Origin: Zanthoxylum bungeanum
Lineage: Eukaryota; Streptophyta; Magnoliopsida; Sapindales; Rutaceae
DNA: 64,000 bases
NCBI GenBank assembly: GCA_019454045.1
Contig: SKCR01038151.1
Span: 124,001 to 188,000 of the forward strand
Direction of reading: 5' to 3'
Below the pieces are notes generated by a model. It was not told where the DNA came from. It saw only the letters and a program-made list of their open reading frames with translations, and made no database searches. Positions 16,138 to 62,682 of this stretch are shown piece by piece; the stretch's first letter is position 1; each line of letters opens with the position of its first letter. Made by a program: the position numbers and the translations under genes.

Positions 16138-16377
16138 GTATCGCGTATATAATTCTGTTGCCTTAAATAATTGCTTTGATGTTGTGATTTCCTTTATTCT
16201 CGCCGACAAGATTTATACTTTTTGACTTTCACTTCACGATTTATTTTAACGTTCATCTAATAATTGTCATTTGGCAGGTACTAGTGCTATTATTACTCAC
16301 CCTTTTTCATGATCTATAAATTCAGCTCGTCATTCTTCTCTTCGACACATCCAGATAAAAATTCAGAAAAGAGAGAA

Positions 16378-21934: not shown

Positions 21935-21956
21935 ATCTCCCACTTGGCCTATAGCC
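21935..21956 (-). other. Polypurine tract and RNase H end of copia element III
   Basis: ATCTCCCACTTGGCCTATAG on the plus strand is the reverse of the CTATAGGCCAAGTGGGAGAT that precedes the 3' LTR at 63272. Confidence 0.85.
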
Positions 21957-21959
21957 TGT

Positions 21960-24900: not shown

Positions 24901-25720
24901 AGCTACATTTTGGGATTTATCATTTATCTCCTAGAAGAATATAATGATTTTTCCGTTTGCTCATTTTCACATTCCAGTAGCCTTTGGCAAGCCCTGGGTT
25001 TCTAGAATATCGAAGTAAGGTGCGCCTTGCGCTACTTGCCATAATGCAAATTTGACTTTGTCTCCTTGAGAATAGTCATTAACTCTCCAAGAGTTATTAT
25101 TGCAATTTAGTACTTCTAAAATCTAAGCATAGATTTATAAGAATCCTTCAATTTCTTTATCATACTTTAAGGATCTAATCCTTAGTTCTGATTCAGAAAT
25201 TAAGGAGTCTACTGCGACAAGCTTAATGGATTAAGCACTAAAGTTATCATTACATAAATCTTCCAAAGATTATGCTCGACTATTTGCTTAACTCCGGGCT
25301 TAGGCATAATTTGTTATTTATCAAATAAAGCAACTATTATTTTCCAGGACCATCCTGAAATTTTATTCTCAATTTGAAAATTAAACCATTTAAATACATT
25401 TTCCCTAGGATTATGTTTTAATGTCAATCTTTCAATTTAATCTTGATTCTAATAGTCCAACTATTTAATCAACGATTTCGGTACCTTTTATTATAATGAT
25501 TACAGATAAATAGTCCAATATTTAATCAACTATAATTAATTAAATCAAATACATTGATTACTATAATCTAATTATAATAATCAACTATAAATGAAATTTT
25601 GAATATAGTCCAACTATTTAATTGAAACAACAATTTAAATATTAGTCCAACTAACATTTAATTTATTTGGCGAATGATATTTGTTTAGCGCGTATGGCAA
25701 GTAATTAAACGAATATTGCA
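21960..25720 (-). pseudogene. copia III gag-pol, heavily degenerate
   Basis: No long frame remains, but domains can be placed by similarity to the element at 50-53 kb. RNase H lies at about 22000-22330 (reverse of GAGCTGGAAATCTTCCAAGC). RT lies around 22860-23080, where a 73-aa minus frame keeps an HPDGFVVPKLANKVC-like stretch. The integrase core is near 23970-24010 (reverse of the SDRGG-coding bases) and at 24130-24190 (LLALVHSE-like). A zinc-knuckle remnant is near 24870-24900 (CGKR...). The order on the minus strand is gag, integrase, RT, RNase H, as in Ty1/copia. Confidence 0.75.
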
Positions 25721-29803: not shown

Positions 29804-30163
29804 ATCCTACCAATGGGATTCCGAGGGGTCTATCCAGAGCGAAGCTGTTTCCATACCATCGGCAAACAGAACCTCCTATTATACTTGCATGAGTATGTGT
29901 AATACTAGCCTATTCCGCATTATCGATGTCCATTCTCGATAATACTATGACTATGGATATTTAATGATTAAACCTTACGTGGATTAATATTGTCTTATAT
30001 CTTATTAATCCGGTACTAATCATATGGACTTTTATCATTTATAGATTCCAGGTAATCCAATTATAAATAATAAAAGAGTAATTTCCTTTGTCACATAGTT
30101 AATTTGTTCAACAACGCCATGTCCTATACAAATAGTGATGCTATGGGTCATAATTGTCCAATA
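29804..30163 (-). repeat. Minus-strand copia LTR, right piece (completes 18338-19867)
   Basis: Resumes with CCTACCAATGGGATTCCGAG, exactly the LTR sequence expected after CATAGTCA, and runs to the terminal GGGTCATAATTGTCCAATA (an altered LTR end). Confidence 0.85.
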
Positions 30164-32428
30164 ATAAGATCGAAAGGATATATGTTGTTTTGATAACCAC
30201 TTGCATCTCATGCATCTTATGCATACACACATCATGTTAATTATGTGTCATCAAAGGCATCATATATATCCATTGGGTTGGAGAAGAAAGAAGACTTGTC
30301 AAGAAGAGTTTAACAAATATGATATCAGGAAAAGGAAGCCGAGAAACAGAAAACTTTATGGCAAGAATAGAAAGACCATTGATGGGCCTTCAGAAAAAAA
30401 AAATTTCTAGAAAAAAAAGGAAAAAAAAAAGAGAGAGAAAAAAGAAAAAACTGTTTGTTTTTAGTCATTAATAGTTAGGCATAGTCCGATGATGAAATTG
30501 TGTGCTTTAGGGTGAAACCTTAGAAACCACAAGTCATTGATACATTTTTATCTGATGATTTGAGTAATTGATCTAGGCTAGACTCGTGAGCACTTAATCA
30601 TATGTTTATAGCAGTGGAAACCTGAGTAGTCGGTAAGGTGACTAGTTGAAGAAATTGTAGGTCGATGAATGACCATTTGCTTAGATGTCTATCTTGATTT
30701 GCTTTGATGTGTGGTATGGTTGAAAATAAAAGAAAAGTGTCAAAATAAGAAAATTAAACCACCTATAACCGATAAGCATGAAGCTACCCATGGGCAAGTA
30801 TTAGGACCACCATGAGGAGAAATGCTACCTTAAAGGGTAGGTGTGTTAAAAGAAAAAAAAGAGAAAAAAAGAAAAAAAAAAGAGAGAAAGAAAAGAAAAA
30901 GAGACAAAAGAAATGAAAACAAAATCATACCATATTGAGCACAGAAAAAGCAATTGCAGAGCATAATTGAGACATCTAGGTTGGTTTGACCCATCGATCT
31001 CAATTTTTAAAACGAAATCATTGAGTTGGCTTACCTATGAATTAAGCTGTAAAAGAACCTTGCACGCACGCACTTTAAGTCTGGCTTAGATCATTTATTC
31101 AAAAACTCAGATTTGAGTTACATTTAGTGCTTTCAAAATTCTCTGGTTTCATTACGGGGCATTCTTTGAGGATAATAATATGTATAATTATTGGGACTAC
31201 ATGATGAGGCCGCTTTCAAGAAGGTGTAATCAACCTTGACCTAGTGCAAGCAGTGGAAATCAGAAAGCTAAACCAAGTCTGGGGGCGACCAGTCTACCAC
31301 CTCGAGAATCAGGGACCAATCAATTTGTTCCCGAATTGAGTCATGGGACCCAAGAAAACTGAGCAATCACCAGAGTATAATTGATAGAAGGAAATTATAA
31401 GTAGGCCCGGGGGCGACCGAAGACTTTTATAGTCCGAGGGCACCAAAGAGCGCAAGGAATGAATAACCAAGGATAACATCGAGCCAAAAGGACAAAGAAA
31501 ACCCATCGGAATAGGAAATACATCCATGCATACACATCACATACACGCATTTTTTATTTTGTGTTCGCAGGTTTTTGAAAAAAAAAGAAAAAACGGTAAA
31601 GACGAGCAACTCAATTCGGGAACAAAACCCTCAACTCAATTCGGGAACAAGACCCTCAACTCAATTCGGGAACAAGACCCTCAACTTTATTCGGGAACAA
31701 GACCCTCAACTCAATTCGGAAAAAAGTCCCTCATGTCAATTCGGGAATAAGACCCTAATCTCAATTCGGGAATAAGACCCTCAACTCAATTCGGGAACAA
31801 GACCCTCATCTCAATTCGGGAACAAGACCCTCAACTCAATTCGGGAACAAGACCCTAATCTTAATTCGGTAACAAGACCCTCAACCCAATTCGAGAACAA
31901 GACCCTCAACTCAATTCAGGTACCCTCAACTCAATTCGGGAACAAGTCCCTCAACTCAATTCCAGAACAAGACCCTCAACTCAATTCGGAAACAAGACCA
32001 TCATCTCAATTCGGGAACAAGACCCTCAACTAAATTCGGGAACAAGACCCTCATCTCAATTCTGGAACAAAACCCTCAACTAAATTCGGGAACAAGACCC
32101 TCATCTCAATTCTGGAACAAAACCCTCAACTCAATTCGGGAACAATACCCTCATCTCAATTCAGGAATAAGACCCTCAACTTAAGTCGGGAACAACACCC
32201 TCATCTCAACTCAAGAACGATTTGGGAATGAACCACCTCTCAAGTAACGGTTCGAGAATAAACAATGGGTCGAAGCACCTCACCACCAGATCAACTCAGT
32301 TTGAAGCGTCTCAAAACAACAGCTAAGTTCAGCAACAGCTGGCGAGCCAAGTAAGTAAAAATGCATGCATAACTTTGATAGGATTGTCACTGTTACACAC
32401 TGCATAAGTCCATCAAAGTGGGGACGAC
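30164..32428 (+). other. Non-coding 3' internal region of an LTR element
   Basis: No coding sequence seen. It contains two A/purine-rich tracts (30390-30450, 30845-30910), two GGGGGCGACC words about 130 bp apart (near 31280 and 31410), the minisatellite at 31605-32215, and an AAAGTGGGGACGAC polypurine-like tract directly before the LTR start at 32429. Its left end is cut by the copia LTR at 30163. The lineage is uncertain; Ty3-type is inferred from the tandem repeats near the 3' end. Confidence 0.5.
31605..32215. repeat. 25-bp minisatellite, about 24 units
   Basis: The unit is close to TCAACTCAATTCGGGAACAA followed by GACCC. Variants alternate CTCAAC and CTCATC and include a few truncated units (for example near 31920). 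Because 25 is not a multiple of three, the array is read in all frames, which gives spurious N-S-G-T-R-P and Q-F-G-N-K-style ORFs. One unit-like stretch in reverse orientation (GTTCCCGAATTGAG) lies upstream at about 31327. Confidence 0.95.
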
Positions 32429-36979: not shown

Positions 36980-39666
36980 TGTTAGGGTTGGTGCTCCGAG
37001 TGCCTATTCGGATCGTATTTATGTATGATTCATAATTACAAGCAAATCAAATTTTCCATAATATTACCAATTTTACTGGTAGCACCCTTGTATTTCATAC
37101 GCTTATTCGATCTAATTACGATTAGATATCTGATTACGATTAGATCGAAACTGAATCTGGTTCAGTGATACGTGTATATTAGACAAAGACCCTAGGATTT
37201 ACAGTATAGTGCGCAGTTACAACGTAGTTTGTAATTGACATTGGGAAGCGCACTATTAGTTGTATATCCTTAAATAAAGTTTCTAGTTAAGATTTGCTAA
37301 CATAGGTCGGTTAGTAAAATCCATTGAGACCAGACATGTCGTATATTATGACTTGGTCCGATGGTTTATCCCAGTGAACCATGAGTCTCGGGAGACTCGT
37401 ATAGACATGTAGGTGTTTATTTGATAAGACACTAAACGACTCACTGAAGGTTTCCTAATAGATGGTACACCAACGTCTAGTAATGATCAGACCTCCGCAT
37501 GTTCGTTGGGTGTGGACTGATGGTCATGATATCCTGTGGGTATCAAGATAGGATCCATCAGTCCTGTGTACAAGGCATAGGCATCCAACACGTGTTTATG
37601 ATCAAGTAAATCCATGGCCGTGGTATGGTATAACTTCGGAAATCAGTTCTGAGTGTTATTTAGAGATCGTAAATTGAAAGTCGATTGTATTATACCGACG
37701 ACGAATTTGACGTTCTGATCTATATCCGAGGTATAATACGGATGGCCTGTGACGGAGGGATTATACGTATGCTATGACCTCGACTTGTATAGCTTAGTGA
37801 GATTATCCGTGGTCGTCATAATCCATGAGTGGGTGGATTATGGACACGAAATTAGATTTCGTGACGGATATGGTATAACTTCGGAAATCAGTTCTGAGTG
37901 TTATTTAGAGATCGTAAATTGAAAGTCGATTGTATTATACCGAACGAATTTGACGTTCTGATCTATATCCCAGGTATAATACGGATGGCCTGTGACGGAG
38001 GGATTATACGTATGCTATGACCTCGACTTGTATAGTTTAGCGAGATTATCCGTGGTCGTCATAATCCATGAGTGGGTGGATTATGGACACGAAATTAGAT
38101 TTCGTGACGGATATACCTAAACTTAGAGAGTCCCACAATATGAAGTGTACTCGTTGAGCACTTGGGCAACTCAATATGAATAATACGGATTATTCATAAT
38201 ACTTCATCGGATTAAATGAGTTAATCGGATCGTTTAATCAGTTAAACGATAACAAATGCATTATGGGATTTTGTCCGCTAATAATATTGTGTATTTGTAT
38301 TTGATACATAATACGATTAGATACACATTAATTATTTGTCAAATGAGATTTTGACACATGCCATAAATATATGTATTTGTTATTTATTGTAAATAAAATA
38401 CATATATAATAATAATTACATTAATTAATTATTTGGATATTTAATTGTAAAAAATCTAAATTGTTAATTAATAAGACTTTTTCATAAATGTTATGATTCA
38501 TGTCCAATTATTATTGGAGCATTTGGCATGTATTAAATAAGCTTTATATGTGTCCAATTTTGATAAGTAAATTATAAAGTGTAATTGCATTAATTTGATT
38601 AATTGAAAAAAGATAATAATACCCCTATTCTTGTCAAATTTCGTCCATATAAAAGAGAGAGAAAAATTATTTTTGATCATCTTCTTCACCTCTCCACTTT
38701 GCCGTGAGTTTCACCAAAATTGGGTTTCAAGTTCATTTGATTAATCCATGAAGATTTGAAGCAAAAATCAAGAAAAAAAGTCTAAGGATTTGGGGATTTA
38801 AGGTAAGTCTTCAATACCCTATGCCTAGAAATTAGATTTCTTATTTCTTGATGACTTAGAAATGTTATAGGGTTTACTTCAAATCTGAAAAATGGGGCTT
38901 TGTGGTTTGGTTGATGGATTGGAAGTTTGTAGGCGTGTGTGAAGAAGAAATTGGGTGGAATTAATGTAATTTGCATCCAATTTTGTTCAAATTGTTGTTG
39001 GATAATAAGTTGCCATTCTAGAGTTGTTGATCCACTCTAAATAGCCTAGAATTGTTCTAGAATTGTTCATGTGTGGTGGGACTTCTTTGGTGTAGGATAA
39101 TTAGATTAATCCTAGTGAAAAATTAGATTTAAGCATGAATTTTTAGCATTTTTTGTCACTGTTTCAGATCTGGAATTTTCAGTATATATATTGATGTATT
39201 TGATGTTAAATAAATGTTTTGGATGTAATTTGGGAGTTGGAACAATGGCAGAAAAGTCTTTCTGACTTGAAATAAGCGAAAACGGCCAAAAATGGGGTTA
39301 CCGGGTGGATTTTGAGCCAACCGGGTGACGGCTATCCAAACATTGAATCCGTCACTGTTCGGGCAGCTCATGAACTGCCCTGACACTATTGGAGCTGACC
39401 TGGGTAGTTTCCATAAGTGTCGGGTAGTCAGTTCGGTCAAAAACGCGTTTTAGGTAATTTTGCGGAAAAACGGTTTTCGTAAAAGTTTCGCGAGTTTTTA
39501 ACTTGTTTATGTCAATATTTGATATTGAATAATAGGTTTAGGTGAAATATGAATAAATTATTCATATTAAATATTGAATAATTATTTTGTATTTTAAAAA
39601 GGTTTTAAAATACAATTTCGCCCGAACCCGCGCTTTCGCTGCGCCCCATCGCCCAAAACCCCAACA
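36980..39666 (+). repeat. 5' LTR of element IV
   Basis: TGTTAGGGTTGGTGCTCC ... AAACCCCAACA. Compared with the 3' LTR it has a 245-bp tandem duplication (unit starts 37627 and 37872) and lacks about 100 bp present at 44383-44486. Confidence 0.92.
37627..38116. repeat. 245-bp tandem duplication, two copies
   Basis: GGTATAACTTCGGAAATCAG starts at 37627 and 37872, and the copies are near-identical to each other. The 3' LTR has one copy (about 44636-44877). The duplication therefore arose, or was lost, after insertion. Confidence 0.92.
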
Positions 39667-42600
39667 AAAATGGTATCAGAGCGGGTCTGATGCTTCATTC
39701 ATTACATTATTCATGCTTGATATATGATATATAATCCAATTTTAATGTTCGCACATGCTTGGAATCTATATGTGTTTCTTTACTTCTCGGTTCTTCGCTA
39801 ACGAACACGTAGCAGAAATTTAATTGTTAAATTGAGTTATATGTTCTAAGATAGAATTGAAATGTTTAGAAAATGATTTAGATTAAGATTCTGCATTTGA
39901 TGTAGATTAAAACTTCCATAGGAAAATCCCCGCATTTAAATATGGCTGTAAAGTAACGTGTATTGGATACATATTTCTTGGTCCGTCTTGTCAGTACGGT
40001 TTATAGGTATTTTTCTATAAGTGCATCTGAGATCATGCCAAAGTATGAGGGTGTAGTTATAGGATTTTATCCATACCGATTGTATAATGATACTGGATAA
40101 ATTCAAGTGAAAGTGGAAATCATGAACGTGCCATAGCTGTCAGGATTACACCGGTAGCTTGAGTTTGTCATTGACAAGTGTAGCCTTGATACGCCTCCCT
40201 ATGAACGTGCCAAAGCTGTCACAGCGCGAAACGACCAAGACCAAAACCAGGAGTCACTGGCGAGTGATTGATAAGGAGTTGTCTACCTAATGAATATACG
40301 TAGGCAAGAACGTGACAAAGCTGTAAGTCGAAATATATTCATGGGATCCCACTCTCAATATGAAATTCGATTTAATTATTGAATTCCCGTTGTCCGTTGG
40401 GGATTACGGTATTACGTAAAGTAGTGGGAGACACTGCTGAGTTTAAAATCCATAACTTAAGCAGTGAGTAATATTTTGGAATTTACTCCTTTTGTTTTCC
40501 TTACATTCTATATTGTTTATAGATTTATACTTCTAATCCAGTGCATGTATATTACTTGAATATATAGGTTTTCTATCTTTACTTATGGTTGTGTAGGTTC
40601 TAGAAATAGAATAGACTTAGATATAGTTAGATTGGTTAAAACCATCGGGAACTGTTGTTCTGATTTTCTTTTGAAAATCAAGATGGTTTGTGACTTAGTT
40701 TCTAAGTCACGATTAGGTAATCTAAATATATATGTGTGTTTAGGATATTATTCTAGTTAGAATTGTTTCTTATGCAGTAAGAATTGACTTGAATAGTTCA
40801 TGTCTCGAGATTCTTGACTAGCATTAAGAAAACCCATTTAGTATTTGTTTATCTAATAATGACGTTTCTTTGCTTTTAGTGACTTTTAGAAGTCACGTGC
40901 CTGACACAGTTTGCTAATCGATTATTTACAATTGTTGTAAATAATTGAACGCAAATTATAAAGCTTAAGAAATGAGATGCATATAATTTTGTATAGAGAA
41001 TATTGATTCTCACAATACAACAACTGCAGGTATTGGATACCTGATCTCCCGTCTAGTTACTTAAAATAATGTTTAACAATAGTTTTGATATTTGAAATCA
41101 GAACTTGTGACTATTGGATAGTTACTTGTTCTGTATAAACAGTTGTTGCATATTTTAAGACGACTAGTAGTGTCATTAATGAAAGATAAACATTAAGAAA
41201 TTATTCGGTAATAAATAAATTAGAACTGTGCTTTATGAGATTTTATCATAAAAGCATTAGATGTTCGATCCTTATGGTAAAAGATGGTTTGATACGAGTT
41301 CACACCACGTATCCTTTTGAATATTGTATTCAGGAAGTGATTAAATCTCATTTAACCGATGATTGTCATTGGACCACAGATTTATTAGACTAATACATTG
41401 GATGTATGTAGTTTAATGAATTAGAAATTGCCTTAGATAGTTTTCTATACTCCCTGACTTAGTTGATTAATTTTCATGACTTAGTTACGTGTTTCTAATA
41501 GAGAACATGTTGAACGTCTTGAATTGTTCAAGAACTGTCAATATGATTCTAATGAAACTCAGATAGAGTATTTTGAATAGTTCAAAGATATTTTATCTGT
41601 AATGTTGAAAACTTTGTCTTTAAAATTCATTGCGCGTCTTTAAATTGTTTAAGAAGTTTGATTTGATCAAACACATGAATTTGAGGCAATTAGTTCTAAA
41701 TTATTTAAGGAATATGATTCTTACCCAGTATTAAACTTCCGCGATTCCATTTTGATGGAATTGGTCAGTGGGAGTAATCAGATCTTATATGATTTGATTC
41801 GTTGATATTAAGTGTTACCGAATTATTTTTCAATACTCTTGGGGTTATGCTTCAGTAACGCTAATTCATCTATTTAATTATGGTTCCATTTGTTTCTACA
41901 ATCACACATATGATGTGTATAGTAGAAAATTCGAATCTTGAAAAGTTTTAGATTTGAAACTTTCTTTTGTATAATGGTTATATAATTGAAAATACTTATG
42001 CCTCTGAGGTATGAGTGATAGGTTTATCATTTATTCTATTTAATAGAATATTTTATTCTATTTGATAGAATATCTTTTCTACGATCTCGAATAATGAAAT
42101 TGTTTTGTTACTTGGTGGTTGACATTGGATGTTGACAATTGTAGAAATGACTTGACTTAGTGAAGTCAAATAAGAGAGTGATAAACTGTGATGGAACTAC
42201 ATAATTAATAAGATGAAAAGACCTTTAGATAACTGCCGTATAAGTTTAATAGGAAGTCAGAATCATTTACAAAGTATTTGATACTTAATAATTCTGATGT
42301 TTTCTTATCGAAGAAAAATATCCTATAACTCATAGTGGGAGCGATATTTGATATTGATCCGGAAATTAGCATTGAACCATAGATCTAAGATTGTTCACGG
42401 CTTATGACGATCACATTTTGAACTTGACTAAGCGTTCGTTATGAATAGTTCATAAAATGTGCAAACTTTTTGCGTAGCAAAAGTAAAGTGAGCTTGATAA
42501 AGGTTTGACCTTTATAGTATGACAGTGAGAAAGTTATACTCAGTAGTCTATTGTAGATTCTGAGGAAGCTTGTCTTTTGTCGCACTAATTGAACAATAAA

Positions 42601-43884
42601 AGATGTATTGGTTAATGTCGATATTAAACCGTGTGTTTTGGCTAAAGAATGCAAAGTGGCGTTCTTGAGTGATTTCTTCGAATGAGAAATTCGTTGTGAT
42701 TTCTTTGTTTGAAGAGTTCATTCTAGAATGGCCCTGGAGTTTGTATTCTGCTAATATCACAGTTTGATATACTGGCTTATAGAGCCTACTGTAGACTCAG
42801 ATGAGCTTTCTAGAAATTCGTGTTCTCTGATTTTGATATCAGTCAGATTGTCTGGTTTTATCAAAATATAGAGAATATGTATTTGTCAGTAGGGTCAGTG
42901 GGAGCGTACAAATTTCTTTCTAGTATTATATATCATAAGTCTTCTTCTCTGTGAAAGCAGTGGAAGTAGTCTGTGATATATCTGATATAAAGTTTTTATA
43001 TGATATAAAACTAAGAGACTTGTGAAAGACTCTCATTAATCGCATATTAGATATGATCTAATAAAGGACACAACGAGACTATCTGTATGACAGTTAGTGT
43101 AATTGTTTGACAGTTAACATGTCTTTTATGTATATAGTATTCATCTTTCGTAAATGATGATTCCTTTATCGAAAGAAAGATTGATTGGAATGTCTAGTCA
43201 ATCTTATGCATCATAGGATGATGGCGTGATGAATACCATATTATGTGTGATTATAATATCAATTTAATCGTAATTGTTACGAGTTATTTTGATTTGCTGC
43301 AGACCATATGATGAATCTTGAAACATGTTCTTTGTGATCTTTGAGATATTAAGAATGAGTTTCTAATTCATGGAGAATTTAGTCAGCAACCATAAGGTCA
43401 GATTAGTATTGATTCTAATTATGACATTAGATGGTCTATGTCATATAAAGTCAGAAAGGATGCAATGGGAGTGTCACTATTGATTCTACTGAACTAGTGG
43501 AATCAGTTGCAACTTTTGAAGTATTGACTTATGAAGTTGCAAAGTGACCTCAACAATTAGAGGTGTTGATATTAGTTTTGTGCTTGCGGTTGTCTCAATG
43601 TATTTGGATTTGATTTCTAAATATATAGATAACTTAGTAACTATAGCATAATACTAATATAGCTTCTGAGTCATATTGATGTGGAATTTGGATTCTGCAG
43701 AATATGAATGATGCTGCTTAAGGAAAACAGTTGAGTTTGTTGGACATACTCGATTTGTTAAAGCAGGCTTACTTGTTGTTGCCTACCTCTTGAGTGCTGG
43801 TGAGCTCTGGAGGGCCACGGTATGTGATACACATTAGATGTGTAATGGATACTGGGGATTGGCACTAGAGCAAGTAGGAGAAAT
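39667..43884 (+). other. Internal region of element IV, no coding capacity
   Basis: PBS at 39671-39682. Three short GAACGTG[CA]CA[AT]AGCTGT repeats occur at 40125-40325. AGTGGGAG-type words recur near 40428, 41768, 42333, 42897 and 43469. No gag or pol motif could be found on either strand and all frames are short, so the internal sequence is either non-coding by descent or decayed past recognition. Confidence 0.65.
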
Positions 43885-45829
43885 TGTTAGGGTTGGTGCT
43901 CCGAGTGCCTATCCGGATCGTATTTATGTCTGATTCATAATTATGAGCAATTCAATTTTCCATAATATTACCAATTTTATTGGTAGCACCCTTGTCTTTT
44001 ATACGCTTATTCGATCTAATTACGATTAGATATCTGATTACGATTAGATCGAAACTGAATCCGGTTCAGTGATACGTGTATATTAGACAAAGACCTTAGG
44101 ATTTACAGTATAGTGCGTAGTTACAACGTAGTTTGTAATTGACATTGGGAAGCGCAATATTAGTTGTATATCCTTAAATAAAGTTCCTGGTGAAGATTTG
44201 CTAACATAGGTCGGTTAGTAAAATCCGTTGAGACCAGTACATGTCGTATATTATGACTTGGTCCGATGGTTTATCCCAGTGAACCATGAGTCTTGGGAGA
44301 CTCGTATAGATATGTAGGTGTTTATTTGATAAGACACTAAATGACTCACTGAAGGTTTCCTAATAGATGGTACACCAACGTCAATAGGAACCTTCATGAG
44401 TTGAGCGAGCATAGTGGTCATTTGACTTAAGATACCACTATGGATATATGAGCTATCCTCCACACTTTGATGGCAGTCACGTCAACGATCTAGTCATGAT
44501 CAGACCTCCGTTTGTTCGTTGGGTGTGGACTGATGCTCATGATATCATGTGCAAATCAATATAGGATCTGTTAGTCCTATATACAAGGCATAGGCATCCA
44601 ACATGTGTTTACGATCTAGTAAATCCATGGCTGTGGTATAACTTCGGAAATCAGTTCCGAGTGTTATTTAGAGATCGTAAATTGAAAGTCGATTGTATTA
44701 TACCGAACGGATTTGACGTTTGGATCTATATCCCAGGTATAATACGGATGGCCTGTGGCGGAGGGATTATACGTATGATATGACCTCGCTTGTATAGTTT
44801 ATCGAGATTATCCGTGGTCGTCATAATCCATGAGTGGGTGGATTATGGACACGAAATTAGATTTCGTGACGGATATACCTAAACTTAGAGAGTCCCACAA
44901 TATGAAGTGTACTCGTTGAGCACTTGGGCAACTCAATATGAATAATACAGATTATTCATAATACTTCATCGGATTAAATGAGTTAATTGAGATCGTTTAA
45001 TCGGTTAAACGATAACACATGCATTAGGGATTTTCTCCGCTAATAATTATTGTGTATTTATATTTGATACATAATACGATTAGATACACATTAATTATTT
45101 GTCAAATGAGATTTTGACACATGCCATAAATATATGTATTTTTTATTTATTGTAAATAAAATACATATATAATAATAATTACAATAATTAATTATTTGGA
45201 TATTTAATTGTTAAATATCTAAATTGTTAATTAATAAGAATTTTTCATAAATGTTATGATTCATGTCCAATTATTATTGGAGCATTTGGCATGTATTAAA
45301 TAAGCTTTATATGTGTCCAATTTTGATTGGTAAATTATAAAGTGTAATTGCATTAATTTGATTAATTGAAAAAAGACAATAATACCCATACTCTTGTCAA
45401 ATTTCGTCCATATAAAAGAGAGAGAGAAAAATTATTTTTGATCATCTTCTTCACCTCTCCACTTTGCCGTGAGTTTCACCAAAAATGGGTTTCAAGTTCA
45501 TTTTATTAATCCATGAAGATTTGAAGCAAAAATCAAAGAAAAAAGGGTAAGGATTTGGGGATTTAAGGTAAGTCTTCAATACCCTAAGCCTAGAAATTAG
45601 ATTTCTTATTTCTTGATGACATAGAAATGTTCTAGGGTTTACTTCAAATCTAAAAAATGGGGATTTGTGGTTTGTTCGATGGATTGGAAGTTTGTAGGCA
45701 TGTGTGAAGTAGAAATTGGGTGGAATTAAAGTAATTTGCATCCAATTTTTTTCAAATTGTTGTTGGACAATAATTGCCATTCTATATTTGTTGATCCACT
45801 CTAAATAGCCTAGAATTGTTCTAGGGTTG
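43885..45829 (+). repeat. 3' LTR of element IV, interrupted
   Basis: Matches the 5' LTR from its first base to a position equivalent to about 39058, where copia II (TGTTAGAC) begins. The remaining ~600 bp should lie beyond the right window edge, after copia II. Confidence 0.9.
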
Positions 45830-52439: not shown

Positions 52440-53396
52440 TCCGCTTTATGGAAAGAGGCCATGAAGTCCAAAATGGATTCCATGTACACCAATCAGGTTT
52501 GGACACTGGTTAATGCACCAGAAGGCGTAAAGCCTATGGATGCAAATGGGTCTTCAGAAGAAGACCGACATGGATGGCAACGTACAATGTACAAAGCTAG
52601 GCTTGTAGCGAAGGGGTATCGAAACCGACATGGTGTCGATTATGACGAAACTTTCTCACCCGTTGCCATGATTAAATTCATTCGGATAATGCTTGCTATT
52701 GCTGCATATTTCGATTACGAGATATCGCAGATGGACGTTAAAACCGCTTTCCTTAACGAAAACCTTTTGAAGGATGTTTATATGCAACAGCCTGATGGTT
52801 TTATCGTGCCTAGACTTGCAAATAAGGTTTGTAAGTTAAATCGGTCCATTTATGGACTGAATCAAGCATCGCAGTCATGGAACCAACGTTTTGATGAGAT
52901 CATAAAAGAATATGATTTCATTAAAAACGAAGATGATCCTTGTGTATATAAGAAGGTTAATGGGAGAGCACTGACTTTTATTGTCCTTTATATTGATGAT
53001 GTATTGCTTATGGGAAATGATATTCCCATGTTAACATATGTGAAAGCTTGGCTTTCATTAAAATTCTCCATGAAAGATCTGGGAGAAGCAGCCTATATTC
53101 TGGAATAAAGATCTACCGGGATAGATGTAGAAAGCTGCTTGGACTCTCCCAGAGCACGTACATTGACAAAGTGTTGAAAATATTCAACATGGATCAGTCC
53201 AAGAGGGGACTGTTACCAGTGTCACATGGCATCACTCTATCTAAGGACATGTGTCCTAAAACTCAAGATGAGAGAAACAGCATGAGTCGGATACCGTTCG
53301 CCTCGGCAGTCGGATCGATCATGTATGCCATGATATGTACGCGACCTGATGTCTCGTATGCTTTGAGCATGTGTAGTCACTACCAGCCGATCCAGG
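52440..53396 (+). pseudogene. copia II reverse transcriptase, interrupted
   Basis: A 215-aa frame (52461-53108) has YKARLVAKGY, QMDVKTAFLNE, SIYGLNQAS and the catalytic YIDD at about 52991-53002. A frameshift near 53100 leads into the connection domain (LLGLSQSTYIDKVL, TRPDVSYALSM). The sequence is then broken at 53396 by the Athila element. The domain resumes at 62683. Confidence 0.9.
53392..53396. repeat. Target site duplication, left (CCAGG)
   Basis: CCAGG precedes the Athila LTR; CTAGG follows it at 62678-62682. It is a 5-bp duplication with one mismatch, within the RT-RNase H coding sequence. Confidence 0.85.
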
Positions 53397-55149
53397 TGAT
53401 GAGCGGAAAATATATCAATATTTACCGCCCCTTTTACTTAATATTTTGTTTAGTTTCTCGGGTTTGATGAACGTTTTGATATGTTTTAGTTTATTTTGCA
53501 GACAAAATAATATTGGGACTTAATGAAATCATTTAGGATGAAATATGGGTCAAATAAGGGAAAAAATTGGACTTTACATATTAATTTTGGAGATTGGAAA
53601 CTTGAAATGGCGTTTTTTACGAAGTGCAGTTTTGGAAATTCCAGTATTGCGCATCTGTCGTATTTTGGACATAACTGTTTACTCCGATATCGGATTGAGC
53701 TGATTCAAGTTCCAGATTAAAGAAGACTCAAAGATCTATAGCTTTGAAAGACAAAATAATTTCGAATTCTGATTATATCATGCCCGAAATTGATGAATCA
53801 TCCAGAAGTGTGTTGTGTGTAATTATTAAAGTCACTTTCAATCATTTTCAAAGAAAAAAATAAATTAATAAATAGATAATAAAAATTATCAAATCATCAC
53901 CAAACATGATAAGAGATTAGTAAAGCAATTAATAATGGATTTGGTGGAGCAATTAGTGGAGCAATTAGTGGAGCAATTAATAATTGATTTGGTGGATGAT
54001 TTGATGGAGGCAAAATTTTGCCTATAAATACCAAGCCATTTCATTTGTAAAATTCATACTTTCTTCTAAGGAATTCCTTAAGAATACTAAGAAGATTGTA
54101 TCTTGTTTGTTTATTTATAGCTTTTAGTAATTAATTTCCGCTTTCGCACTTTCTTTTCTTTACTTTTCAGTTTTTACTTTCCGCAATTTACTTTTACGCA
54201 CAATACTTTTCTTTCTTTAATTTTCAGTTTTTACTTTTCAGCAATTTACTTTCAGCTTTTACTTTTCAGTAATTTACTTTCAGCATTTACTTTTCAGCAT
54301 TTAATTTTCAGTATTTAATTTCAGCATTTACTTTCCGTCATTTACTTTTCAGCAATTTACTTTTGAGCATTTTACTTTATGCCTTTTATTTTATTTAAGT
54401 TTTTACTACCCGTAAATATGTGTCGTAACTAAGCCAGTTATCTGGGATTGTGAATGAAATCCAATATCACCGATTTATAAAGGGGTTTAATTATAGTTTG
54501 GGTAATTTAAAGGTTTACTTATTTAGTCTTAAGCTTAATGCGTCTTGTTAATTGGCCATTAATAAGATTGATCTGGTAAATCTAAAATAAACTTGACAAA
54601 GGAATTTTAGGTTTCAGCCTTAGACTTAATAGCCCACGATCTTCCTGAGGATAGATAACCCTTTAATAGATTTCCTTACATGATAGACATATACCTGTCG
54701 GGTGGGGTAGCCATAATTGGAACTTAAACTTAATGAATCCAGATAATTTGGTTGACATAGACATATGGTTCAATTGGGTTAAACTGGGTATTTGCGTCTG
54801 ACCATCGACAGAGGCTTACACATAATTTAGTGTTCCAGGTTAATAAATCAATATATACCCAACTTTAAGATAACCACTTCATCTTTAAAATGATATGGAA
54901 GAAATCACAACCCTAGATAGTTTTTAATATTGAATTTTCTTAAAACCTACTTTCGAACAATTTTATTTACTTGTTTTTAAATTTAGAATCGTCACCATTT
55001 CAAATCAATCAAACAACCTGTTAGATACTAGTAATCATTTGGCCTCATAAAATTAATAGATTAGATATTAAGTCTTCGTGGGATCGATATTTTTATACTA
55101 CTTAAACGATACGTGCGCTTGCGTTATACGTGTGTGTTTACGCCGGTCA
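53397..55149 (+). repeat. 5' LTR of the Athila derivative
   Basis: TGATGAGCGGAAAATATATC ... GTTTACGCCGGTCA, 1753 bp. It is very similar to 60934-62677. It contains GGAGCAATTAGTGG direct repeats (53945-53990; one unit more than the 3' LTR) and a pyrimidine-rich array of TTTACTTTTCAGC-like units. Confidence 0.94.
54150..54385. repeat. Short pyrimidine-rich repeat array in the Athila LTR
   Basis: Repeats of a roughly 13-16 bp unit, (A/C)TTTACTTT(T)CAGC. The equivalent array is at 61690-61905 in the 3' LTR. Confidence 0.8.
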
Positions 55150-55155
55150 AGTTTT

Positions 55156-55173
55156 TGGTGCCTTTGGCGGGGA
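55156..55173 (+). other. Primer binding site (tRNA-Asp-like)
   Basis: TGGTGCCTTTGGCGGGGA, six bases after the LTR; resembles the TGGCGCC...GGGGA site of Athila elements with a few substitutions. Confidence 0.85.
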
Positions 55174-55280
55174 CTTATTTATCTTTCACTATTTGTTGTG
55201 GGGTTAGATACGTTACTTGTATCTAATTTCTTTTTACTTATTATTACTATTTTCTTGTGTTTCAGGTTCTCAGAAACTAC

Positions 55281-57589
55281 ATGAAACGAACCAGAAGCTT
55301 TGAAATCCGACCGCTTGACCCAGAAATTGAAAGAACTATCAGACAGTTGAGAAGGGAAAGGCGAGAAGGCCAAGAAGCAATCATTAACATGGAACCTGAA
55401 CCGTTGGAGGTTGCACCACCAATTCCCATTCGAGACAGAACCATTCCGGTGGTTGACAGACTCATTTCCTGTATTGTACTTCCTCCCTTACCAGCAAATA
55501 CGTGTGACGTCAAAACATGCATTCAGATGATTCAGAAGCCAGTTCAGTTCGGGGGGAATGCAACTGAAGATCCGAATGCCCACATCAGTAACTTCCTGGA
55601 AGTTTGCGGTACTTTCAACTACAACAGAGCATCAGAAGAAGCAATGAGACTGCGTGTTTTCCCATACTCCTTGAAGGACAGAGCTAAAGCTTGGCTACAT
55701 TCACTACCAGCAGGTTCTATCACAACTTGGAACACTTTAGCCACCAAATTTCTTGCAAAGTACTTTCCACCACCAGCCAACGGAAAGCTGAGAATGACAT
55801 CACATCCTTTGTGCAACAAGACTCAGAAACTCTCTACGAAGATTGGGAAAGGTACAAAGATTTTCTTCGAAAATGTCATCACCATGAATTTCCAAAATGG
55901 CTTCAAGTCCAAACATTCTATAATGGACTTTCTGGAATAATGAGAACCACAATCGATGCTGCTGCTGGAGGAGCTTTATTGGTAAAATGAGAAGATGAAG
56001 CTTGGGACCTAATCGAAGAAATGGCCAACAACAATTATTTATGGCCAACAGAAAGGAGCATGATCCAAAGAATTGCAGGAATTTATGAAGTTGGAGCCAA
56101 CACAGCACTGAATTCCAAGCTGGATGTGATTTGTAAAAATCTGGAAACTCTTAACATAAAAGTTAATGGTGGATCCACAAGTTCACCATTTGGAGGAGCA
56201 CCCAAGTCAGAATCTTTCAACCAACATAAAGAAACGGTGAATTATGTCAATAATTTCAACAGATAAGGGAACAATCCATATTCCAACACCTACAACCCAG
56301 GGTGGAGGAATCATCCCAATTTCGCATGGAGCAACAATTCAGGGCAAATAAACAATCCACCACTCGGATTCCAACAACAGAACAAAAGTCAGGAACAAGC
56401 AAATGAACCAGGAATAACAGAAGTGTTGACCCACTTGAAAAAGATAGAAGCAAAACACGACTCTCAAGCAGCAAGATATGATGCTATGTTTCAATCTCAA
56501 GCAGCAAGATATGATGCTATGTTTCAATCCCAAGCATCATTAATTCAAAGTCAATCAGCTTCTATTAAAGCACTGGAGAATCAAATTGGACAACTGGCCA
56601 ATGCTCAGAGTTACAGACCGCCAGGTACCATTCCTAGCAACACAGAGCCAAATCCAAGGAACATGGGGAAGGAGCAATGTCATGCCATCATGTTAAAAAG
56701 CGGTACTGAAATCAACAAAGATGTTGGAGCCAAAACAGCTGCTGAGGAAGTTCCAAAAGAAACAAAGCAACAGATGGAGGAAAAAGATTCAAAGGAAAAA
56801 GAACAGATCATTCCACCTCCACCTTTTCCTCAACGTCTTCAGAAGAACAAATTAGACAAGCAGTTTTCTCGGTTCCTGGAGATCTTCAAAAAGCTGCATA
56901 TCAACATTCCATTCGCAGAAGCGTTGGAACAAATGCCCAGCTATGCCAAAATCATGAAAGACATTCTTTCACGAAAGCGGAGATTGGGAGATTACGAGAT
57001 AGTAGCATTATCAGAAGAATGCAGCGCTATCATTCAGAGGAAACTTCCCCCAAAGTTGAAAGATCCTGGCAGTTTTACTGTACCTTACGTCATAGGAGAA
57101 CATGACTTCGGTAAGGCTCTGTGTGATCTAGGTGCCAGTGTTAACTTGATGTCTTTTTCCATTTTCAGGAAATTACAGATTGGAGAAACAATGCCAACTT
57201 CAGTCTCACTACAACTTGCTGATAGAACGCTCGTATTTCCAAGAGGCGTAGTTGAGGATGTGCTGGTCAAGGTTGACAAATTCATTTTCCCAGCATATTT
57301 TATTGTCCTTGATATGGAGGAAGACGCAGACATGCCAATAATCTTTGGGAGACCATTCTTGGCTACAAGTCGAACCATTATTGATGTACATAAAGGAGAA
57401 TTAACCATGAGGGTACATGACCAAGAAGTAACATTCAATGTTTTCAAGGCCATGAATTTCCCAGATGATGAAAAGAAGGAGGAATGTTTCAGACTTGATG
57501 TGATACACAGTACCATTCAGAACTCCAATGCATACAAAGTTCTACTGACAAACTTAAAACATGTCAATTGCCTGTGGAGCCTAAGATAA
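55281..57589 (+). pseudogene. Athila gag-protease, broken
   Basis: The start ATG at 55281 gives MKRTRSFEIRPLDPEIERT. The capsid region has DPNAHISNFLEVC, RVFPYSLKDRAKAWL and SLPAGSITTW. Around 55790 the frame shifts and then stays constant to 57589, with stops at 55988-55990 and 56264-56266. A 36-bp tandem duplication encodes two AARYDAMFQSQ units (56466-56537). The aspartic protease motif ALCDLGASVNLM (about 57115-57150) has Leu for the usual Ser/Thr; IIFGRPFLATSR is the flap/alpha-D region. No RT follows; the frame ends at TAA 57587-57589, next to a deletion point. Confidence 0.9.
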
Positions 57590-57618
57590 AGCGTCTTTTG
57601 CACTGAAAGAACCTATTC

Positions 57619-57996
57619 TTGCACTACAAGCAACAGAATAGAAAAAGTTCCACCAGCTCAACGAATTGGAGGAATTTCACTACACCTTTTGAGAATGCCA
57701 AATTGTACAAAGAAAAGGGCAATAAAAGACATGATGAGAAGTTAGTGCGCATACAACTGGAACCAGGGCAGAAGGTACTGTTAAACAAATCAAGGGTGAA
57801 AATTTTCCCATGGAAGCCAAAATCACGGTGGTCAGGTCCATTTGTGATCACCAAGGTTTTAACAGAGAGAGCCGTTGAGATACATGATCTTGACTCCAAC
57901 AAAACTTTCAAGGTTAAAAACAAGCGTGTTAAGCACTACTGGGGAGAATCATTTGAGCGACAAAAAGAAAGTGTCACACTTTCAGATCTAGCCTAA
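57619..57996 (+). pseudogene. Athila integrase C-terminal remnant
   Basis: An open frame includes EKGNKRHDEKL, LEPGQKVLLNKSRVKIFP and SRWSGPFVITKV, the typical C-terminal beta-barrel of Athila integrase, ending with TAA at 57994-57996. The whole of RT, RNase H and integrase catalytic core that should precede it is absent; the join with the protease part lies between about 57585 and 57640. Confidence 0.88.
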
Positions 57997-58029
57997 CTTT
58001 CGAGAAGTCATTTCTAGCTGACGACTTAA

Positions 58030-58055
58030 ACTTAGCGCTCGCAGGGAGGCAACTA
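58030..58055 (+). other. Conserved Athila post-integrase sequence
   Basis: TTAGCGCTCGCAGGGAGGCA and the following AC. The counterpart at 15873-15893 reads TTAGCGCTAGAGGGGAGGCA. It marks the end of pol in Athila-like elements. Confidence 0.7.
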
Positions 58056-58098
58056 ATGTATTTTTTGTATATATTGTGATTTGGTGTGATTTAATTTG

Positions 58099-58117
58099 GT
58101 GTATTTAGTTTTTGCAG
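58099..58117 (+). promoter_or_regulatory. Candidate 3' splice acceptor before the cysteine-rich ORF
   Basis: GTATTTAGTTTTTGCAG, a T-rich tract ending in CAG, 16 bp before the ATG at 58134. Splicing of env-like ORFs has been proposed for Athila-type elements; use here is inferred. Confidence 0.4.
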
Positions 58118-58133
58118 ATTAAGACATTTCAAG

Positions 58134-58589
58134 ATGGAAGAAGCTCTCACAAATCTTCACAAGCAATTTCCTTCTCTCCCTCAAAAATCTCTGATGAAAG
58201 TTTACAAAGTTCGCTTGGAACGAATGAGATTACTGATGATTAAAGGTATTCCTACTAACATTCGTTGGTTAATTGAAGCACGGGTTCGATTGGCAGGTGA
58301 GTCTTCTGACTCTTTTATTTCACATCTGCATGGTTTTGGAAAAAGCACTTATGCAAAGAAATGTAGAGCTAAGCAAATGGGTGTTTGTTACAAATGTGCA
58401 CGCTGGAATTGCAATACTCGTTATCGTTCTTTAGGAATGGTGTCTGATAATCGCGAAGACAAAATTAAATTCATTAGGGATGGCTTGAGTAAGGAGTCTT
58501 TAGATGATATATCTTCAACTCTTGAGACGCATCCCAGTGGATATGTTCACAAAGCCATTCGCAAATTACATACACAATTCCAAAAATAA
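58134..58589 (+). CDS. Cysteine-rich basic protein, similar to plant-virus nucleic-acid-binding proteins
   Basis: 151 aa, intact, ATG at 58134 (AAGATGG context). The N-terminal two thirds is helix-like and basic. A Lys/Arg-rich stretch at residues 70-80 leads into Cys77, Cys85, Cys88 and Cys93 (C-x2-C-x4-C with an upstream Cys), followed by a conserved-looking NREDKIKFIRDG and a Ser/Thr/His-Pro tail. The pattern of a basic run, small Cys cluster and downstream VxxFIxxG-like element resembles the Viral_NABP family of carlavirus-type RNA viruses, where such proteins bind nucleic acid and affect host gene expression. That assignment is from memory of the family pattern and unverified. No signal peptide or membrane segment. 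It occupies the env-like position, followed by LOG. Confidence 0.6.
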   Translation: MEEALTNLHKQFPSLPQKSLMKVYKVRLERMRLLMIKGIPTNIRWLIEARVRLAGESSDSFISHLHGFGKSTYAKKCRAKQMGVCYKCARWNCNTRYRSLGMVSDNREDKIKFIRDGLSKESLDDISSTLETHPSGYVHKAIRKLHTQFQK

Positions 58590-58950
58590 AGACAACAATT
58601 AAGTCTTGGGAATCTGACTCAAAAAGACCCTGTTTGCCAGTTTATAAGAAAATTGGATGGGAAGCTTGTCCCTGACGCATAGACGTCAATCAAGCCGCTT
58701 CTTTTCTTGTACATATTATATTTCTTTGTCTTTTTCTAATAATTGTAAATTGTTTTGTTGTTTTCTTTTATTTTCTCCGACATGATCCAGACCTTTTTGA
58801 CTATCACGATTTATTTTACTGTTAACTAATAATTGTCATTTGGCAGATACTAGTGCTATTTTTACTCACCCTTTTCAGGTACTATAAATTCAGCCCGTCA
58901 TTGCACTTTTGAAGGCAGCCAGAGTTGAGAAAGAAATACATAAAAAAAAA
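58590..58950 (+). promoter_or_regulatory. Conserved intergenic region between cysteine-rich ORF and LOG
   Basis: Contains CTAATAATTGTCATTTGGCA plus G (58825-58846), a branch-point plus 3' splice-acceptor-like block, then CTATAAATTCAGC (TATA-like, 58882-58894) about 65 bp before the LOG ATG. Both elements recur at 16257-16277 and 16313-16325 before the LOG pseudogene although much else has diverged. It may be a splice acceptor, an internal promoter, or both. Confidence 0.45.
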
Positions 58951-59604
58951 ATGGAAGCCACTTCAAGAAGACGAGTTGAAAACATCTGTGTGTTTTGTGG
59001 TACTAGTGTTGGTGTTAAGCCACAATACGTAGAAGCAGCACAAGAATTGGGTCGAGTCTTAGCTGCAAAGAATATGCACTTAATATATGGCGGAGGCAAT
59101 CTTGGACTTATGGGGATCGTTTCAAAAGCCGTACAAGAAGGAGGTAGTCACGTTTTGGGAATCATCCCAAAACCCTTGGCAGAGGCAAATCTTAGTGAAC
59201 CATCAAACGGAGAGGAACTGATCGTGCCAAGTATGTCTGAACGTTTGGTAGAAATGATTAACCGTGATGATGCTTTTATTGTTTTGCCAGGTGGCTTGGG
59301 TACATTGGAGGAAATTTTTATTGTGCTATCTTGGGCGAACCTGAACATACACCAGAAACCAATTGGGCTGTACAACGTTGATGGATTTTATGATTTTCTT
59401 TGTGTGTTTCTTGATGATGCCCGGAGAAATGGCTTCGTGTCAAAACCGTTGAAAGAACTCCTATTTACTGCCAGAACTGCTCCAGATCTAATAGACCAAC
59501 TCATAGCCTATGAACCACGAGTTGACCCTATCCTTTCAAAGATAAATTGGTCTGAGGACGATCGTGGTAAGAGGAGTAGGATTAATCTGGATCTTAACCT
59601 TTAA
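58951..59604 (+). CDS. LOG-like: LOG-like cytokinin riboside 5'-monophosphate phosphoribohydrolase, intact
   Basis: 217 aa from ATG 58951 (AAAATGGAAG context; same start as the relic at 16378; a 14-codon upstream extension to 58909 is possible). Rossmann-type LOG domain over nearly the whole length: ICVFCGTSVG (11-20), YGGGNLGLMG (46-55), LGIIPKPLA (69-77), MSERLVEM with Arg98 (95-102), PGGLGTLEE (113-121). Arg and Glu of the last two motifs are the catalytic pair in the family, which splits cytokinin nucleotides into free cytokinin and ribose 5-phosphate in the cytosol or nucleus. MSERL departs from the usual MHxRK. Plant LOG genes normally have several introns; this has none. The C-terminus is basic (KRSR) and ends in LDLNL. 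It lies inside a retrotransposon in the sense direction. Confidence 0.9.
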   Translation: MEATSRRRVENICVFCGTSVGVKPQYVEAAQELGRVLAAKNMHLIYGGGNLGLMGIVSKAVQEGGSHVLGIIPKPLAEANLSEPSNGEELIVPSMSERLVEMINRDDAFIVLPGGLGTLEEIFIVLSWANLNIHQKPIGLYNVDGFYDFLCVFLDDARRNGFVSKPLKELLFTARTAPDLIDQLIAYEPRVDPILSKINWSEDDRGKRSRINLDLNL

Positions 59605-60140
59605 TTTCCTGTAGATTTTCAGCTAACCAGGTATTATTTTCTAACTCTCTTCTTCTACTTTTTAAGACATTTGGGACAATGTCTCATTTAGGTTTGGGGG
59701 AGGGAATTAGTTGATCAGTACCTTGTTTTTAGTTTGTGTGTTGTTTTTATTTTTAGTCCAAATTTTTTCGAAAAATACAAAAAAATTGAAAAATTTTCAA
59801 AAATTACAAAAATATTTTGCATTTTTTGTTTTTATTTTGACTAAAAAGGTGAAATTGGTAAGAGATAGATGAGTAAGGAGTTTCCACTCCTGAGACGTAT
59901 CTCAAACCATTTTTGAAACAAGTTAATTTTTTTGTTTATTTCATTTTGAATTATTTAATTTGTGAATTCTCCTCAACGACTACAAATGAATCTTTATATG
60001 CTCAGTTGACAGATATTATCAACATTTATAGTAACATACGGACATGAGCTAAAATTGAACAGTTTGTAATATTCAGTGCTTTAGTTTAATTGGAGGAAGC
60101 ATCTCGAAAAGCAATGGAGTAAAAAAAAATTCCGAGATCC

Positions 60141-60385
60141 GAGTTATTAAGTCTGTAAGGGTGTTTTAACACATAGTGCCCTAAAACCAACTGGTTTGGG
60201 AGTCATTGGCCCAAAGCTCGCTACATGGATCAAAGATGCTGCAAAAATATATATATATGAAGTCTGAGTAATTAAGTCTGTAGGGGTGTCTTAACATCTG
60301 GTGCCCTAAAGCCACTGGTTTGGGAGCCACAGACCCAACACTCGCTACATAGATGGAAGATATTGTTTATAAATAAAAAAATAGA
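60141..60385. repeat. 125-bp direct repeat, two copies
   Basis: ATTAAGTCTGTAAGGGTGT at 60146 and ATTAAGTCTGTAGGGGTGT at 60271, each followed by GTGCCCTAAA, CACTGGTTTGGGAG-like and CTCGCTACAT stretches. Confidence 0.88.
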
Positions 60386-60920
60386 GAAAAAAAATCAAAG
60401 AAAAAAATCTGAAAAATCAGAAAAATTATTCCATTGCTACAAAAAGGTGTGAAATCTGATAGAACTTTAGGACAAAAACATATTACTCTCTTATCAACTG
60501 CACTTATGACTGTTGTGGGCAAAAATGAGTTGATTAATATTTTGTCGACTGTGTATATGGAGAATGGTAAAAATAATCGGAGAATTTACTTATTCGGTAA
60601 TTTAGAAAGAAAGAAAACAACTAGTAACTTGGAGTAGAGTTTCACCTGATTAGTCACTAACTTCTTTATTCTCTTTTCTCTTGTCTTTTTGCTTTTGTGT
60701 GCATTAGTTTTATTATCTTTTTACTTTTGTAAAACGTTTGTGGGTATCGTAACTGTAAGCCCTCACGAGACTATAACTCGTCCACTAGGGACACCTAGAG
60801 GTTTAAAGGCTTGTTGCATATGCTAAATGCAACCGTGATCCCTACGAAAGTGGCTTAGTTTAATTTTAATTATTTCTTGTATTTTATTTTGTTGTTTTTC
60901 TCGAGGACTAGCAAAATGTT

Positions 60921-60933
60921 AGGTTTGGGGGTG
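60921..60933 (+). other. Polypurine tract of the Athila derivative
   Basis: AGGTTTGGGGGTG, immediately before the 3' LTR start TGATGAGC. Confidence 0.9.
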
Positions 60934-62677
60934 TGATGAGCGGAAAATATATCAATTTTTACCGCCCCTTTTACTTAATATTTTGTTTAGTTTCTCGGGT
61001 TTAATAAACATTTTGATATGTTTTAGTTTATTTTGCAGATAAAATAATATTGGGACTTAATGAAATCATTTAGGACGAAATATGGGTCAAATAAGGGCAA
61101 AAATTGGACTTGACATATTAATTTTGGAGATTGGAAACTTGAAAGGGCGTTTTTTACGAAGTGCAGTTTTGGAAATTCCAGTTTTGTGCATCTGTCGTAT
61201 TTTAGACATAACTTTTTACTCCGATATCGGATTGAGCTGATTCAAGTTCCAGATTAAATAAGACTCAAATATCTACATCTTTGAAAGACAAACGAAGTTC
61301 GAATTCTGACGATTTTATGCCCGAAATTGATGAATCATCCAGAAGTGTGTTGTGTGTAATTATTAAAGTCACTTTCAATCATTTTCAAAGCAAAAAAATA
61401 AATTAATAAATAAATAATAAAAATTATCAATTCATCACCAAACATGATAAGAGATTAGTGGAGTAATTAATAATGGATTTGGTGGAGCACTTAGTGGAGC
61501 AATTAATAATTGATTTGGTAGATGATTTGATGGAGGCAAAATTTTGCCTATAAATACCAAGCCATTTCATTTGTAAAATTCATACTATCTTCTAAGGAAT
61601 TCCTTAAGAATACTAAGAAGATTGTATCTTGTTTGTTTATTTATACCTTTTAGTAATTAATTTCCGCTTTCGCACTTTCTTTTCTTTACTTTTCAGTTTT
61701 TACTTTCCGCAATTTACTTTTACGCACAATACTTTTCTTTCTTTAATTTTCAGTTTTTACTTTTCAGCAATTTACTTTCAGCTTTTACTTTTTCAGTATT
61801 TACTTTCACAATTTACTTTTTAGCATTTAATTTTCAGTATTTAATTTCAGCATTTACTTTCCGTCATTTACTTTTCAGCAATTTACTTTTCAGCATTTTA
61901 CTTTATGTCTTTTATTTTATTTAAGTTTTTACTACCCGTAAATATGTGTCGTAACTAAGCCAGTTATCTGGGGTTGTGATGAAATCCAATATCACCGATT
62001 TATAAGGGGTTAAATTATAGTTTGGGTAATTTAAAGGTTTACTTATTTAGTCTTAAGCTTAATGCGTCTTGTTAATTGGCCATTAATAAGATTGATCTGG
62101 TAAATCTAAAGTAAACTTGACAAATGAATTTTAGGTTTCAGCCTTAGACTTAATAGCCCACGATCTTCCTTGAGGATAGATAACCCTTTAATAGATTTCA
62201 TTACAGGATAGACATATACCTGTCGGGCGGGGGTAGCCATAATTGGAACTTAAACTTAATGAATCCAGATAATTTGGTTGACATAGACATATGGTTCAAT
62301 TGGGTTAAACTGGGTATTTGTGTCTGACCATCGACAGAGGCTTACACATAATTTAGTGTTCCAGGTTAATTAATTAATATATTACCCAACTTTAAGATAA
62401 CCACTTCATCTTTAAAATGATATTGGAAGAAATCACAACCCTAGATAGTTTTTAATATTGAATTTTCTTAAAACCTACTTTCGAACAATTTTATTTACTT
62501 GTTTTTAAATTTAGAATCGTCACCATTTCAAATCAATCAAACAACCTGTTAGATACTAGTAATCATTTGACCTTATAAAATTAATAGATTAGATATTAAG
62601 TCCTCGTGGGATCGATATTTTTATACTACTTGAACGATATGTGCGCTTGCGTTATACGTGTGTGTTTACGCCGGTCA
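60934..62677 (+). repeat. 3' LTR of the Athila derivative
   Basis: 1744 bp, same ends as the 5' LTR, scattered substitutions and small indels. Followed by CTAGG, then copia II RT sequence. Confidence 0.94.
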
Positions 62678-62682
62678 CTAGG

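Follow-up and report, generated by a model that had tools for sequence, protein, structure and literature searches.

What does a gene of the LOG family, known for activating cytokinin, do inside a retrotransposon that is otherwise falling apart? The question arises in a stretch of 64,000 nucleotides of Zanthoxylum bungeanum DNA (the window; assembly GCA_019454045.1, contig SKCR01038151.1, positions 124,001 to 188,000), in which a nested long terminal repeat (LTR) element of 9.3 kb (53397-62677) sits within a Copia element. An earlier note on this DNA had read the element as an Athila derivative without polymerase that keeps a captured host LOG. We found that LOG follows another open reading frame (ORF), which resembles nucleic-acid-binding proteins (NABP) of carlaviruses, and that both ORFs are under purifying selection in pairwise comparisons of copies. 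From the sequence, we consider it reasonably probable that the two form an effector cassette of the retrotransposon, a suppressor-like protein plus a retooled LOG, seen here in a decaying and non-autonomous copy. The function of extra ORFs behind pol in plant LTR retrotransposons is a standing question, and it becomes testable with two such ORFs that belong to recognisable families and appear to be under constraint. The features that carry the argument are as follows.

58134-58589, plus strand: NABP-like ORF of 151 codons, with a C-terminus shorter than in many relatives (PF01623)
58740-58950, plus strand: non-coding block, conserved (161/194 against the second copy), that contains a motif like a splice acceptor with its end at 58846
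58951-59604, plus strand: LOG gene, 217 codons, intact (ORF list, Pfam, TIGR00730, structure match and model)
59569-59601, plus strand: LOG tail, basic and with LxLxL, codons 207-217
16180-16722, plus strand: second LOG copy, broken, with the upstream block

The earlier note was right in that the LOG frame is intact and intron-free: its 217 codons run from an ATG at 58951 to a stop at 59602-59604 and show no lesion. The frame matches PF03641 (E 3.1e-36; 124.9 bits, cut-off 27) and TIGR00730 (164.8 bits, cut-off 96.35), stays far under the cut-off of the equivalog CtkRMPhLog (112.7 vs 300), and gives E 8.8e-59 with AtLOG3 (2a33). A LOG fold is predicted for its product (mean pLDDT of the model 82.7), with AtLOG3, 2a33, as the best structural match. 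Chromosomal plant LOGs typically contain introns, and the intron-free frame fits with a possible capture of the gene as mRNA. LOG had also been placed in the env-like position; it does lie behind pol in sense, but the NABP-like ORF stands between the two. A bacterial promoter scan of the locus is uninformative for a plant gene.

The proposed catalytic residues of CgLOG are Arg99 and Glu122, and its adenine/prenyl site, common to AtLOG3, includes Met96, His97, Lys100, Glu125 and Trp129 (PMC4979012). In this analysis, we mapped these residues to AtLOG3 row chain numbers 98 and 121 (catalytic) and 95, 96, 99, 124 and 128 (pocket), and examined them in two sets, element-type LOGs (best 120 of 1768 relatives of the LOG frame) and canonical LOGs (best 120 of 7997, with AtLOG3 and AtLOG8 as queries), leaving out other LOG subfamilies. 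A length filter left 96 element-type and 113 canonical sequences for site and pocket counts, and 93 and 100, respectively, for tail counts; most element-type sequences are on short contigs and were classed by kinship rather than from their flanks. All seven columns are identical in the 113 canonical sequences. Of the 96 element-type sequences, 86 retain both catalytic residues, 93 retain Met and 95 retain Trp, with His remaining in 19 and Lys and Glu in nine each; Lys and Glu are thus lost in 87/96. The copy in the window retains the PGGxGTxxE motif, the catalytic Arg and Glu, and the pocket Met and Trp, and has His, Lys and Glu replaced. Therefore, the claim that the frame has every family motif holds for the catalytic pair, but not for the pocket, where three of five residues differ from all canonical LOGs. 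Given the frequent loss of Lys and Glu, that this LOG makes active cytokinin is unproven, and the altered pocket would make it less certain.

The tail also distinguishes the two sets. LxLxL, the EAR repressor-recruiting pattern, occurs within the last ten residues of 77/93 element-type LOGs, and a basic cluster lies near the C-terminal end of 88/93, vs 0/100 canonical LOGs in both cases. In a tree of 71 sequences, 42 element-type LOGs, both window copies among them, are separated from 28 canonical ones by one branch with 98/98 support; the root is unsure, and the bacterial outgroup branch is long. On a 65-row tree that excludes tail and pocket columns, the losses of Lys and Glu cost one change each and the LxLxL tail costs four. 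The whole canonical pocket is present in nine element-type sequences, eight of which have no LxLxL tail. This fits with an ordinary LOG having been captured first and remodelled later, although such an order depends on the unsure root. Neofunctionalisation, which the earlier note had contemplated, is hence plausible for the element-type LOG family, with its altered pocket and added tail, but not for this locus. Within the best 120 of 1768 relatives, the nearest four are on short contigs and show 82-87% identity, and the named hosts are Xanthoceras and Populus. Some plant genes annotated as LOGL10-type, for instance from Populus, fall on the element-type side and may thus belong to transposons, a possibility that bears on hormone-gene catalogues.

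Evidence of selection comes from the second LOG copy, whose coding part (16378-16722) has two stops and lacks the 3' part. For 113 codons of the two copies, the ratio of nonsynonymous to synonymous substitution rates (dN/dS) is 0.18 (bootstrap 95% 0.09-0.32, from 1962 usable of 2000 replicates), with a dS of 1.27 that is near saturation; third positions hold 50 of the 100 differences. Because one copy of the pair is dead, this value is, if anything, an overestimate. The low ratio indicates that selection acted on LOG in the mobile lineage, and we take it as good evidence that the gene was constrained during its mobile phase. Upstream of LOG, 161 of 194 aligned bases (83%) in a stretch of ca. 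200 are identical between the two copies, vs 17/32 fourfold sites, and this block, with its splice-acceptor-like motif, looks to be under constraint too. For the copy at hand, however, neutral evolution since insertion would leave the frame stop-free with a probability of 0.65, and without either stops or indels with one of 0.15-0.45, depending on the indel rate. Its intactness is thus unremarkable and constitutes weak evidence about this locus, so that selection on the cargo, as suggested before, is supported for the mobile lineage and not for this copy. All other copies being broken, together with a dN/dS near 1, had been named as the contrary outcome; the window holds one other copy, which is broken, and the ratio is 0.18.

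The NABP-like ORF scores 23.8 bits with PF01623 (cut-off 20.9), and PF05515 was not reported for it. We found 276 relatives, with one cluster of 566 members; in an alignment of 47 of them, a match at E <= 0.01 is seen to PF01623 in 43 and to PF05515 in 42, and the relative P0121 passes both. Many have ca. 182 residues, the window ORF stopping earlier, and the named hosts among the best 120 of 276 are Xanthoceras, Acer, Populus, Rhamnella and Orobanche. The model of the product is weak (mean pLDDT 59.6). A contig of 3.3 kb, L002, carries an integrase (rve, H2C2) and, directly behind it, a relative of 186 codons that passes PF05515 and just misses PF01623; the comparison of this relative with the window ORF yields a dN/dS of 0.23 (95% 0.13-0.38, 151 codons), also at a dS near saturation. 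There is no LOG in the last 983 bases of L002, behind the NABP-like relative. The pair is therefore not universal, and LOG may be a later addition behind an older 3' ORF. L002 (DAIEQH010000041.1) is a plant-like retrotransposon contig filed in a metagenome-assembled genome of Candidatus Nomurabacteria, probably as contamination.

Indirect support for LOG-NABP linkage elsewhere is given by contigs of equal size (1558, 4511 and 8723) in both match lists, since at least three such sizes appeared in 65 of 5000 jittered sets, in a test with a size range (1500-20000) picked after the lists had been seen and with 117/120 NABP rows. Two further equal sizes, 905 and 1022, and one Xanthoceras chromosome are outside the range of the test. 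Single queries with LOG and with the NABP-like ORF found no relatives in viral contigs. The one viral match of the NABP alignment, L001, was discarded as a chance match whose neighbouring ORFs are phage-like by eye.

The remaining features of the element, with the target-site duplications that flank it, are the following.

53392-53396, no strand: left target-site duplication copy, CCAGG
53397-55149, plus strand: 5' LTR
55227-55990, plus strand: gag, with a frame change near 55.8 kb, ending at an in-frame stop (PF03732, E 3.7e-8; three-frame translation)
56267-57589, plus strand: late-gag or protease-like open frame, after the second stop (RVP_2, E 0.056, under the Pfam cut-off)
57556-57996, plus strand: integrase C-terminus remnant (42% identity over 100 amino acids to the integrase C-terminus of L002; tblastn)
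60919-60933, plus strand: purine-rich stretch like a polypurine tract, preceding the 3' LTR (by eye)
60934-62677, plus strand: 3' LTR
62678-62682, no strand: right target-site duplication copy, CTAGG

The LTRs are 95.8% identical over ca. 1760 columns (BLAST), and differ by 61 mismatches in 1742 ungapped columns, with eight gap openings, in an alignment that took in three flanking bases on each side. The resulting Kimura two-parameter distance (K2P) of 0.036 dates the insertion to ca. 1.4 or 2.6 million years, at rates of 1.3e-8 and 7e-9 substitutions per site per year, respectively. The flanking 5-mers agree at four of five bases and, when the element was excised in silico, the joined flanks read on as a Copia reverse transcriptase (RT) region that changes frame at the site. 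With both LTRs in place and the Copia flanks rejoined, LOG is therefore within one LTR pair, as first proposed, and a location outside it is rejected. Between LOG and the 3' LTR, no ORF of 90 codons is listed over a long stretch; within it, at 60138-60361, a segment of ca. 100 bases is present in two copies that are 82% alike.

The decay of the internal region agrees with the initial description: in gag-pro the frame changes once and is interrupted by two in-frame stops, and we detected no Pfam match to RT, RNase H or the integrase core in the element frames scanned. The integrase tail alone remains; only residues 318-461 of the L002 integrase ORF match the element, at 57556-57987 (tblastn). 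Several features are of Athila type, namely a gypsy-type gag (PF03732), the integrase tail and the sense ORFs starting at 58134 and 58951 behind pol, and the element is presumably an Athila rather than a Tat, by resemblance. ATHILA ORF-1 (PF03078) had no match in the frames scanned, but this domain does not define the clade because it is present in just 16% of Athila elements (PMC6317226). As part of the cassette reading, and with the same confidence, we view the element as a member of an Athila-like lineage that is decaying and non-autonomous in this copy.

Steinbauerova et al. (2011) reportedly found two Athila-like elements with similarity to LOGL4. In passages of a screen of 121 angiosperm genomes, consensus sequences of LTR elements from Citrus sinensis and C. 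clementina are listed with a YgdH (LOG) domain, as are those from P. trichocarpa when no copy filter was applied, in agreement with a 2011 report (PMC9289625). A host-type LOG in an Athila-like element is hence present, as the earlier note had it, but is lineage-wide and in print for Citrus and poplar rather than peculiar to this locus (PMC9289625). The Citrus and Populus elements likewise contain a LOG-family gene in gypsy LTR elements of woody rosids, although the main-text passages on them mention no NABP-like partner, pocket change or tail (PMC9289625). The same source describes Phalaenopsis gypsy elements that likewise gained a host-like enzyme gene, of a different type, whose AlkB-type domain is active as an RNA demethylase in vitro (PMC9289625). 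A survey based on REXdb set its lower limit for extra ORFs at 250 codons (PMC6317226), and ORFs as short as the present ones would fall under it. Canonical plant LOGs (AtLOG3, 2a33; AtLOG8, 1ydh) share with this copy the fold, PGGxGTxxE and the catalytic Arg and Glu, and differ from it in that here the pocket His, Lys and Glu are replaced and the gene has a basic LxLxL tail, is intron-free and is mobile. The NABP-LOG pairing, the altered pocket and the tail look new, LOG itself being already known in such elements.

With the carlavirus NABP and cysteine-rich proteins, such as CVB p12, which we take to be a PF05515/PF01623 member, the window ORF shares PF01623, and its relatives PF05515. Unlike them, the element-type ORF lies behind an integrase, has no viral neighbours and aligns only in the central part. 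In the cytoplasm, CVB p12 acts as a suppressor of RNA silencing, and in the nucleus as an activator of transcription (PMC7588395); hyperplasia is also said to be induced by it (PMC12172455). Among the titles and abstract openings covered, none describes a retrotransposon with a carlavirus-NABP-like ORF; passages of a survey on the endogenisation of RNA viruses name one plus-strand sequence, like a betaflexivirus replicase, in cucumber (PMC3136472).

A mechanism can be proposed on this basis. The element would carry two extra genes behind pol, first that of the NABP-like protein and then that of the LOG-family enzyme, and both proteins would be made from a spliced subgenomic RNA, where our reading leans on the acceptor-like motif in the conserved block before LOG. 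Both would act on the host cell in the element's favour, the NABP-like protein by dampening host silencing and the LOG-type phosphoribohydrolase by altering the pool of cytokinin or of another nucleotide. Without a polymerase of its own, this copy would have been mobilised in trans, and the fairly young age of the insertion, not adoption by the host, would explain why its LOG is still open. A bolder version, which we hold to be doubtful, is that the element turned the captured LOG into an effector of its own, still catalytic, with its base pocket rebuilt and a tail of EAR type that recruits repressors in the nucleus; paired with a virus-type suppressor, it would disarm silencing by the host, or signalling through nucleotides, instead of just making cytokinin.

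Several results weigh against the effector cassette. The other LOG copy of the window is dead, and tblastn at E 0.01 gave no NABP match upstream of it, so a stretch there that resembles an NABP remnant by eye is left uncounted. The full catalytic pair is missing in 10/96 element-type LOGs, the Pfam scores that tie the ORF to NABP are modest and its model is poor, and L002 lacks LOG; to this are added the near-saturated dS in both pairwise comparisons and the late choice of range in the equal-size test. Alternatively, the element-type LOG could be an ordinary cytokinin-activating enzyme, more cytokinin in meristem or germline cells leading to more division and more transmitted copies. The fold, PGGxGTxxE and catalytic pair of this copy, and the nine element-type rows with the whole canonical pocket, agree with this alternative, but the pocket Lys and Glu, kept in 113/113 canonical LOGs, are lost in 87/96 element-type ones, this copy included; we regard it as possible, if on the unlikely side.

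Host domestication, by which this LOG would be kept while the element decays, could account for an open frame beside a broken gag-pro and for the state of 59 sites with at least 95% conservation, where this LOG deviates at one and with a residue matched in a relative. Yet domestication of this copy is unsupported given its neutral survival probability of ca. 0.15-0.45, and the gene is in a nested insertion that the constraint predates; this explanation appears very improbable. Had the mRNA of a host LOG been captured just once, and recently, in this genome, this would explain an intron-free gene in sense orientation, as is usual for transduced genes (PMC7264820). Such a capture is disfavoured by the diverged second copy (dS 1.27), by the many relatives on one side of the 98/98 branch and by the prior reports in Citrus and poplar (PMC9289625), and we give it hardly any credence.

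Other repeats and element fragments occur in the window. A gypsy integrase fragment (rve and H2C2) is found on the minus strand at 2526-3830, and a tandem array with a period of ca. 25 bases at 31502-32316. Long direct and inverted repeats resembling LTR pairs are located at 5173-15264, 19867-29806 and 37045-45711, the first pair enclosing Copia-type gag and integrase frames.

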